This document shows positions 118 to 54,808 of a DNA stretch of 54,808 nt, one piece after another (the first letter of the stretch is position 1; every line of letters starts with the position of its first letter). The stretch is from Marinicella sp. (lineage in GTDB: Bacteria; Pseudomonadota; Gammaproteobacteria; Xanthomonadales; Marinicellaceae), in assembly GCA_028284365.1 (NCBI GenBank), contig JANQRW010000047.1:1-54808 (forward strand). The letters run 5' to 3'. A program made the translations under genes and the position numbers. Under the pieces are notes generated by a model. The model did not search any database. It saw nothing but the letters and a program-made list of their open reading frames with translations, and was not told the DNA's origin.

Positions 118-270
118 ACTGCACTCAAGCAAGTCTTATTGCCTTACAGGCAAACCGACTTACTTTCATCGCCTGCACGCGCTATGGCACTCAAGCAAGT
201 CTTATTGCCTTACAGGCAAACCGACTTGCTTTCATCGCCTGCGCTGGTGGAGTGGGTCATTGGTTCTCCA
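118..270 (+). repeat. Dispersed structured repeat, copy A (two 66-bp tandem units)
   Basis: Two nearly identical units start at about 121 and 187, exactly 66 bp apart. Each contains a hairpin TTGCCT-TAC-AGGCAA (139-153 and 205-219). The element ends with a degenerate form of the palindrome seen in other copies (250-266) and the shared CTCCA end. It lies just 3' of the PagL-like gene, which runs on the opposite strand. Related copies are at 11811, 15218, 26253 and 54774. The open reading frame through it is a by-product of the repeat and not a gene. Confidence 0.85.
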
Positions 271-11743: not shown

Positions 11744-11810
11744 TAGAAACTCCTAAGTTATCTCGCTTTCATAAGTTGAATTTAATACTTAGCCACAGTC
11801 TATATTATAA

Positions 11811-11910
11811 CCTCGGACGAGCCACGGCATTCAAGCAGGGCTTCTTACCTTTCAGGTAAACCGCCATGCGCTCATTGCCTGCGCTGGTCGAGTCGATCAT
11901 CGGCTCTCCA
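11811..11910 (+). repeat. Dispersed structured repeat, copy B
   Basis: This single unit has the shared 5' end (CCTCGGACGAGCCACGGCAT), the hairpin TTACCT-TTC-AGGTAA at 11845-11859, the CCTGCGCTGGTCGAG segment and a near-palindrome at 11890-11906. Relative to copy A, one stem pair is A:T instead of G:C. Confidence 0.88.
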
Positions 11911-11972
11911 CTGTGCCCCAGCTTTGGCTAATGGCATGTATGTGGAGGTTTTTGCAGATCCAGACCTGCTGT

Positions 11973-15116: not shown

Positions 15117-15217
15117 GTTCAAAATATACGATTAGAAATACCAGAGGAATTGTATAAACCAATGCAGTTGGTGGGTTTGAGCCCACCAACCAAGATAATT
15201 TTCATTGGTTCTAATAA

Positions 15218-15316
15218 GGAGAGCCGATGATCGGCTCGACCAGCTCAGGCAATGAGGGCATGGCGGTTTACCTGAAAGGTAAGAAGCCCTGCTTGAATGC
15301 CGTAGCTCGTCCGAAG
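15218..15316 (-). repeat. Dispersed structured repeat, copy C (inverted)
   Basis: This is the same element as copy B on the opposite strand, about 100 nt after the gamma-glutamyltransferase stop. It carries the hairpin at 15268-15282 (arms TTACCT and AGGTAA) and a perfect palindrome GAGCCGATGATCGGCTC at 15221-15237, with only its central base unpaired. Confidence 0.88.
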
Positions 15317-15569
15317 TAGAAAGCCATGCTCTTGGGCCTTCCTTTTAAAACTTGCTTGGTGTTATTTGGGTGTTTGCTCATTTGGGTCAATAGTATTCTT
15401 TAAACTCAGCAGTTGCAAAAACAAACCAAAATCAAGAAAGGTTAACAATGGTCTTTGGTGGCTTTAAAACAGCTTACTTAACAAAAAAATAAATAAACTT
15501 GTATTTCAATAACTTACGCAATTTATTTAAAAAATATGTTAAAATAGTTAATTTAAAACTTGCATTAAG

Positions 15570-26105: not shown

Positions 26106-26159
26106 AAAAGGAATGCTCTTTCTGATTCACGGCCTATCGCCCATTCCATAATGGCGCAG

Positions 26160-26217
26160 CTTCCACTCCAAATTCACGCTAAGCACCTCCGTCCATGGCG
26201 GTGTCTTTGCTTCGCAA
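26160..26217 (+). repeat. Second repeat module, copy 1 (stem-loop array)
   Basis: It begins CTTCCACTCCAAATTCACGC (26160-26179), which matches the module at 54553 in 17 of 20 bases. A stem-loop CCTCCG-TCCA-TGGCGG (26186-26201) follows, with a mismatch at the third pair. A second perfect hairpin CTTTGC-TTC-GCAAAG comes next. It lies directly upstream of repeat copy D in the 26106-26615 gap. Confidence 0.65.
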
Positions 26218-26252
26218 AGCCACCACCACTTCATGGTCTGCCTAACCAAGAG

Positions 26253-26414
26253 CACGCGCCACGGTATTCAAGACAGGCTTCTTTATCTCTGATAAAATCG
26301 CCTATCTTTCATTACCTGCACGCGCCACGGCATTCAAGTCAGGCTTCTTTATCTCAGATAAAACCACCAGCCTTTCATTGCCTGCGCTGGTCGAGCCAAT
26401 CATCGGCTCTCCAA
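26253..26414 (+). repeat. Dispersed structured repeat, copy D (two 66-bp tandem units)
   Basis: Two units start at 26253 and 26319, exactly 66 bp apart, each with CACGCGCCACGG. The hairpins are TTTATC-TCT-GATAAA (26282-26296) and TTTATC-TCA-GATAAA (26348-26362). Four stem pairs differ from those of copies B and C, yet all remain paired. The near-palindrome at 26393-26409 and CTCTCCA end close the element. The rest of the 26106-26615 gap is AT-rich and holds no gene I can support. Confidence 0.88.
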
Positions 26415-26615
26415 CAAATCCAGTGTTGTGTTATGGACAATGTTTTTAAGCGTATGTTTCCACTGGTAGAACTGTCAAAATCATTTAACTTGTGGCTGAT
26501 AAACTGTAAGATAGAATTTTCAATCAGTGCTCTAAAACAAAAACCCATTAAACTTTTTCGGTGTGGTAAAAGGTGTGGAGATTTTTGTTTACTCCAAAAA
26601 AACTGATCCACAAAT

Positions 26616-54489: not shown

Positions 54490-54552
54490 TACTGCGATCA
54501 GTATTTAGCTTGAAATCGCTAGTATTGAGAAGGAATACTCTTGGGTCTTACA

Positions 54553-54665
54553 CTTCCGCTCCAAGCTCACGCAGCACACCTATATCCGTATAGGCGTCGG
54601 TCTCCGTTCCAAACTCGCCTCTACCTCCTGCATCCTTGCAGTCGTCATTCAAATTTGCGTTGCAC
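54553..54665 (+). repeat. Second repeat module, copy 2 (stem-loop array)
   Basis: It begins CTTCCGCTCCAAGCTCACGC (54553-54572) and is followed by the perfect stem-loop CCTATA-TCCG-TATAGG (54579-54594). The related module at 26160 has a different stem in the same place with a TCCA loop. Another hairpin CTGCA-TCCT-TGCAG follows. Further on, GCCATC and GATGGC pair near 54701-54718. No gene is visible in 54490-54808. Confidence 0.62.
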
Positions 54666-54773
54666 TGAGCTCAGTCGAAGTGTTCTTGACAAAAGTGAAA
54701 GCCATCGCCAAGGATGGCGGTGTTAGAATCGAGACTGGATCAGAGATCGAGACCACAGCGAGCATGTCTTACT

Positions 54774-54808
54774 ACCTCGGACGAGCTACGGCATTCAAGC
54801 AAGACTTC
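54774..54808 (+). repeat. Dispersed structured repeat, copy E (cut by window end)
   Basis: The last 35 bases begin CTACCTCGGACGAGCTACGG and run on through GCATTCAAGCA, the same 5' end as copies B and C. The hairpin part lies outside the window. Confidence 0.8.

Follow-up and report, generated by a model that had tools for sequence, protein, structure and literature searches.

Introduction

TnpA-REP cuts folded single strands at a CT located 5′ or 3′ of the palindrome, according to a source that also counts IntI among the proteins acting on folded single strands and that calls the dissemination mechanisms of REP-like palindromes poorly understood (PMC8266576). CGTC REPs are described as having stems of 8-9 bp, loops of 4-5 nt, a CGTC tag and no dedicated transposase (PMC3733652). 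BOX elements from Streptococcus pneumoniae are reported to consist of left, tandem middle and right modules, all of them foldable, and insertion into or next to IS elements has been proposed for RUP, a MITE (PMC3049150).

Here we describe a dispersed hairpin of 66 nt from Marinicella sp., hereafter the unit, many copies of which lie in larger composite repeats. By form the unit is closest to REP sequences, yet the tests of tag and length place it outside the GTAG and CGTC REPs. Like REP, BIME and REPIN sequences it is a short dispersed palindrome, mostly intergenic, sometimes located in genes and found in mosaics. Unlike REPs, which have 20-50 nt, it measures 63-71 nt in relatives and has conserved interior loops. 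It lacks an unpaired GTAG or CGTC; CAC precedes the unit in the set of 66 distinct units from relatives, and the interrupted genes described below assign this CAC to the target. It further differs in that no flanking or tracking RAYT was found and that single units have exact empty sites. Y1/RAYT-like homologues do exist, some of them interrupted, and their presence does not follow that of the units, as far as the clade of the interrupted gene and PF01797, a weak profile here, can tell. With CGTC REPs the unit has in common that no dedicated transposase is assigned to the palindrome family, but it has none of their 8-9 bp stems, 4-5 nt loops or CGTC tag.

Insertion at a fixed short target (CAC^T) without duplication, exact in three genes (L122, L120 and L090), resembles single-strand insertion of the IS200/IS605 type, which takes place 3′ of such a target. 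Like MITEs and RUP the unit is small and non-autonomous with some copies in or near IS elements; in contrast to MITEs, its exact sites lack target duplication and its ends are just a 4-bp foot of variable sequence. The composites share with BOX the plan of a left, a variable tandem middle and a right module, a resemblance of plan only, whereas their middle module is itself an insertion element. S. pneumoniae is a distant host. Searches of the literature on Marinicella repeats and on Wenzhouxiangella and repeats gave nothing on the hairpin unit among the matches listed. Single units with exact empty sites in genes, a defined target and many compensatory variants make the letters that are read, the strand and the enzyme testable.

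Copies of the repeat in the window

The window is a 54,808-nt stretch of Marinicella sp. DNA that makes up an entire contig (C6; JANQRW010000047.1), one of 91 in a genome of 3.11 Mb. A first-pass annotation of the window had described five copies of a repeat with one shared layout and a central hairpin kept by compensatory changes. Direct reading and a repeat search returned the same stems, TTGCCT/AGGCAA in copy A, TTACCT/AGGTAA in copies B and C and TTTATC/GATAAA in both units of copy D, with inner-hairpin loops of 3 nt in copies A-D. The layout therefore stands for four of the five copies, while the one at 54774 ends with the contig (54808) ahead of the stem and is uninformative on pairing. 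As annotated, four of six pairs differ between B and D, all four still being paired, and a single pair differs between A and B. The hairpin is present, but it is merely the inner tip of the 66-nt imperfect hairpin; 3′ of the latter lies a second, separate hairpin (GAGCC..GGCTC). This terminal hairpin lies within 11885-11909, after the unit, in copy B and within 15218-15242 in copy C. In copy A, GCAC at 175-178 directly precedes the second unit. The composite of copy D starts 3 nt past the stop codon of a LysE-like gene. A 151-codon open frame (26151-26606) spans this composite; it has no Pfam match and is probably spurious.

Table 1. Coordinates of units and composites in the window, and of units in two other genomes compared with GC skew.
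Feature	Position	Strand	Basis or remark
Copy A, first hairpin unit	118-174	+	R1 match 118-174 and sequence; 5′ part unrecognizable
Copy A, second hairpin unit (GCGC..GCGC, 66 nt)	about 179-244	+	R1 match 175-269 and sequence
Copy B, hairpin unit (66 nt)	about 11819-11884	+	R1 match 11815-11909
Copy C, hairpin unit	15243-15308	-	R1 match 15218-15312, minus
Copy D, whole composite element	26109-26412	+	Left end AGGAATGCTCTT, right end ..GGCTCTCC
Copy D, tandem unit 1	about 26256-26321	+	Sequence, repeat search, R1 match; last four letters GCAC in tandem
Copy D, tandem unit 2 (GCGC..GCGC)	about 26322-26387	+	Sequence, R1 match, ssDNA folding of both strands
Copy D, 3′ terminal hairpin of composite, GAGCCAATCATCGGCTC	26393-26409	+	Helix 5 of alignment A1
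Composite at contig end, partial unit from ~54783	54531-54808	+	Left-end pattern with 0 mismatches; sequence
Unit orientation agrees with skew, genome G113	857605, 882618, 948536, 1227822		
Unit orientation agrees with skew, genome G075	645260, 1493066, 2786565, 2844527, 2858410		
Unit orientation disagrees with skew, genome G075	1478946 (near-identical copy 1480430); second unit beside 645260 (L121)		

The repeat is indeed dispersed. In the 3.11-Mb genome we obtained 54 blastn matches and, from 150 candidates scored, 120 matches at E 0.01 to covariance model R1, partial matches and diverged related modules included. R1 was built from the 95-nt copies of the own genome and includes flank letters. 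Many R1 matches are located within about 100 bases of contig ends, which accounts for the copies at both ends of the window. For this repeat, found at contig ends and within split genes, a covariance model is now available. No named family had been recognized in the first-pass annotation, in agreement with an Rfam scan of the window that returned nothing over the gathering threshold. A search of four loci against Rfam up to E 5 gave three sub-threshold matches, each to an animal or eukaryotic family.

Fold and covariation of the unit

The full unit is an imperfect hairpin composed of a 4-bp foot, two further stems, conserved interior loops and the annotated hairpin at the tip. Alignment A1 holds 33 distinct 95-nt copies from the Marinicella sp. 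genome, each with the unit and the separate 3′ hairpin; of 34 distinct copies the incomplete L033 was omitted. Two-sided changes were found in 15 of 27 pairs, and 93.5% of cells were paired compared with 27.6-41.9% when the partners were slid by 1-3 columns. None of 500 shuffles reached the percentage of paired cells or the covariation score, one reached the number of two-sided pairs and seven the number of pair types. In helix 5 of A1, the 3′ terminal hairpin, 90.5% of cells were paired, with a two-sided change in four of seven pairs.

Units from relatives were collected as 66 distinct sequences from 69 of 75 R1 matches, five partial matches and the weakest full match being left out. For the 42 of these that have exactly 66 nt, tested with one fixed pair layout and with shuffles blind to relatedness, 736 of 840 paired cells were Watson-Crick, whereas 1000 shuffles averaged 504 and did not exceed 537; all four Watson-Crick types occurred at 9 of 20 pairs. 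The own genome entered the same test with 27 distinct units. Compensatory change is thus real, and with 33 own copies and 42 relatives' units it is stronger than five copies could show. RNA folding exceeded that of shuffles in all six stretches (z -2.3 to -4.4), with z -3.79 for the stretch of copy B (11810-11911) and -4.37 for that of copy C (15216-15317).

Not every part of the unit is free to vary. Almost no variation is seen in the GGCA/TGCC stem or in two TT/AA pairs. Of the feet of the 66 distinct units, 53 are fully complementary, and these come in eleven different sequences. Across units from three bacterial families, conservation reaches 90% or more for the unpaired letters AC, TTC, A.C, C.T and T of the 66-nt layout. 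Such fixed unpaired letters amid turnover of stem pairs argue for recognition of the fold, and conserved unpaired letters with covarying stems would be the expected outcome of an enzyme that recognizes a folded strand by its unpaired letters.

Insertion of the unit at CAC^T

In three loci, L122 (G075), L120 (G113) and L090 (G013), a 68-nt unit interrupts a Y1-transposase-like gene, a label for which the scores stay below the cut-offs of both PF01797 (20.6 bits in L122 and 22.2 in L120; cut-off 23) and NF047646 (42.8 and 35.8 bits; cut-off 80). The flanks in all three align to intact homologues with zero gap at the junction. The insertion site is CAC^T, and because each of its letters is present once there is neither target duplication nor loss. 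L090 contains a second unit further on. As judged from these alignments, the unit can stand between CAC and T of its target without duplication. In a fourth locus, L118 (G113), a reading frame continues uninterrupted through a 69-nt unit; its IS91-type match (PF04986, 22.7 bits against a cut-off of 20.9) is confined to one side of the junction.

Among the 66 distinct units of relatives the three preceding letters are C in 62, A in 65 and C in 66, and T comes next after the unit in 60; these counts lean toward CAC^T, as R1 holds flank letters and the 3′ foot was set by the best complement with a small bonus for GCC/T. The interrupted genes are independent of this bias in model and script. Six other joined places (L117, L119, L125, L126, L130 and L132) also end at CAC^T, with no convincing intact frame.

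Positions next to host genes were compared within the genus. At the gamma-glutamyltranspeptidase gene beside copy C, 15 of 16 other loci had no R1 match. An ancestral insertion at this gene shared with G015, the one locus with a match, was rejected, since the build of the element and the sequence beyond it differ by eye. The isocitrate-lyase-like gene that adjoins the composite at 54531 had no R1 unit in nine other loci, and four plus-strand loci of this gene had no composite left end in 400 bases. The gene next to copy D has matches in only 3 of 18 genomes, Marinicella sp. included, and is of no use for a comparison of shared sites. The unit behaves like an insertion element and unlike a fixed regulatory RNA, and that it is a mobile hairpin inserting at CAC^T appears very probable to us.

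Distribution across genomes

Within the genus, R1 matches were present in 16 of 18 genomes, that of Marinicella sp. included, and their number per genome swings from 120, 55, 22 and 12 down to 0 and 0. Of 121 genomes sampled across the order, 27 had matches at E 0.001, representing 6 of 56 genera and three families; the other sampled genera of the own family had none at this threshold. The unit is solitary, without a composite, in both of the other families and in some genomes of the genus. Two unit patterns searched in viral contigs and a 321-base region of copy D searched in plasmid and phage collections gave no match. Two hits to a single pattern in genome collections, in Algoriphagus and Gaoshiqia, were discarded as chance since neither had an R1 match.

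Composite repeats

In the Marinicella sp. genome a common composite left end, AGGAATRCTCTTGGG, was found at 140 places with up to 3 mismatches, about 100 of them with positions among the matches listed, compared with 3 places for the reversed pattern. The right end is a hairpin that ends in CTCTCC or alike. Loose patterns for the two ends delimited 39 complete composites of 98-624 nt, including one probable false pairing (L026). Many units of this genome lie near the 3′ end of composites, single or in tandem, and 8 of the 39 are minimal composites of 148-150 nt without the 66-nt unit. Composites show tandem and swapped modules; in the window, copies A and B have no recognizable composite left end. 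Taken together, these patterns indicate that a larger BOX-like composite, now present with 140 left ends through its own multiplication, has apparently taken up many units.

The CAC^T rule of the unit was not seen in composites. In a set of 89 left ends, defined with up to 4 mismatches and therefore containing some doubtful members, A precedes the left end in 81. For fifteen of the 89, an open frame on the same strand with 100 codons or more has its stop codon no further than 25 nt upstream of the left end, and targeting of stop codons was rejected on this count. Target duplication was lacking in 38 of 39 composites, whose flanks agreed no better than mismatched flanks. A lone composite on the minus strand of L137 (2850-2982; G000:C44) is flanked by a 17-bp direct repeat. 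L179 and L186 (G000:C2 and C47) contain look-alike composites that differ by an extra short hairpin, GCACTGAGCTCAGTCGAAGTG, inside the loop of the left hairpin, a repeat within a repeat.

Which strand folds

A fold tolerates G.T pairs, yet on the strand shown A.C mismatches dominate, which makes the complement the likelier folded strand. Units of relatives have 56 A.C and 16 G.T cells, own units 25 and 19, alignment A1 38 and 24 and alignment A2 74 and 32; the counts are not independent, one pair supplying 16 of the 56 A.C cells and some places being present twice in A2 through overlapping loci. Folded as single-stranded DNA, the complement was better in three of three units, with modest z values of -1.2 to -2.2.

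We also compared unit orientation with GC skew in G113 and G075, using ten 19-kb stretches per genome, on which the assignment of replication arms rests. Among the matches listed, the two were alike at 9 of 11 places (9 of 12 with a near-identical copy), with 4 of 4 clear places in G113 and 5 of 7 (5 of 8) in G075, where the three places at 2.79-2.86 Mb were assigned via the nearest skew sample. The count covers genomes with skew samples and places other than the two G113 arrays at 2.37 Mb, which lie near the skew switch. In the agreeing orientation the unit reads on the lagging-strand side. Mismatch bias and replication-strand orientation are suggestive only of the complementary strand, as single-stranded DNA, being the folded form, and we lean slightly toward single-stranded DNA as the form under selection.

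Candidate enzymes

Homologues of the interrupted Y1 gene occur in 37 of 55 genomes. They are present in the unit-free genomes G027, G034 and G038, missing from the unit-bearing G031, G041, G056, G062, G074 and G112, and seldom near units: R1 at E 1 gave 5 matches among 31 loci, all in three of them, two being interrupted ones. No enzyme of the clade searched tracks the presence of the unit. In the own genome PF01797, a weak profile for this clade, detected no RAYT. The own Y1/RAYT-like homologue on contig C1 (L227, ~955-1922; G000:C1), missed by PF01797, is broken by an opposite-strand unit (R1 E 8e-5); this gene is decayed and its unit junction is inexact. Spread as a SINE-like retroelement was rejected for lack of a PF00078 reverse transcriptase match in the own genome at E 0.001. 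A REP-type (Y1) nuclease remains the best guess because the cutting of TnpA-REP at CT suits C^T, and an HUH/Y1-type enzyme as the mover of the unit is a tentative assignment to which we give slightly less than an even chance.

Origin of the covarying hairpin

Overall, the data are best explained by a self-contained, non-coding mobile DNA hairpin, which we consider likely. A candidate enzyme would recognize the fold via its unpaired letters and would cut and join single-stranded DNA at C^T; it would most likely be an HUH (Y1, REP/IS200-type) nuclease that acts on the complementary strand during replication. If only folding copies spread, the stems would stay paired. The first-pass annotation had listed a REP/MITE-like mobile element among its options, and with units splitting genes this option fits best. 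Its other options, a 3′-end mRNA structure or a protein-binding RNA made from the strand shown, fall under the wider idea of a structured RNA (riboregulator or mRNA 3′-end element) that is kept for a host function, dispersal being secondary. Such an RNA would account for the strong covariation, the folding beyond shuffles in all six stretches and the 15 of 89 left ends close behind same-strand stop codons. However, the place of the element is unshared at the two genes compared, one genus ranges from 0 to 120 matches per genome, copies split transposase-like genes, and A.C exceeds G.T on the strand shown. Moreover, the units of copy D lack a terminator-like site, the single terminator-like match in this copy being upstream in the composite and no more than shuffles give. 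We regard a structured RNA as improbable here; the case cautions that an intergenic repeat may covary cleanly for reasons other than RNA structure. A mobile hairpin is also favored over a passenger that is copied only with larger composites and spreads by homologous exchange among them. Many own-genome units do lie in composites with common left and right ends and with tandem and swapped modules, but copies A and B have no recognizable left end and composite-free single units occur in other families and split genes exactly, which leaves the passenger with very little probability.

Covariation had also been taken to mean that the folded form is selected. The covariation is real, but the conclusion was too quick. 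Template switching in quasi-palindromes is a known mutational route to two-sided changes without selection, and the changes observed are mostly from Watson-Crick to Watson-Crick and come in runs (four of six adjacent pairs between B and D). Against this, unpaired letters are fixed across three families despite the turnover of many stem pairs, and the interior loops are kept although correction would tend to remove them. Template switching could add two-sided changes, yet it fails to explain the fixed unpaired letters, which argue for recognition in its stead; as the maker of the paired changes in place of selection for the fold it is unlikely. Folded DNA of the mobile hairpin might instead be the substrate of a non-HUH enzyme, such as an integron-type tyrosine recombinase. 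The unit recalls attC sites, hairpins in which unpaired letters are conserved and the stem sequence varies, and no Y1 gene of the clade searched tracks the units. But no cassette was seen and, to our knowledge, CAC^T is not an attI/attC core, so this kind of enzyme is quite unlikely. Within the reading as a mobile hairpin, the unit may even be a complete transposable unit of ~66 nt, a single ssDNA hairpin whose unpaired letters are recognized, whose stem sequence is largely free and which is cut and joined at CAC^T by a novel enzyme, also in lineages without an intact REP-type transposase of the clade searched. This possibility is worth considering, although we give it clearly less than an even chance.

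Arrays and close pairs of units

Tandem arrays of three and six units lie ~5 kb apart in L116 (G113:C1:2367600-2375600). They are open in several reading frames, 66 being a multiple of three. The list of open reading frames between the two arrays revealed no transposase by eye. Close pairs of units in opposite orientation, resembling REPINs, are located in L121 (G075:C1:644100-646500) and in L090 (G013:C12:241217-244310), where the pair lies inside the Y1-like gene.
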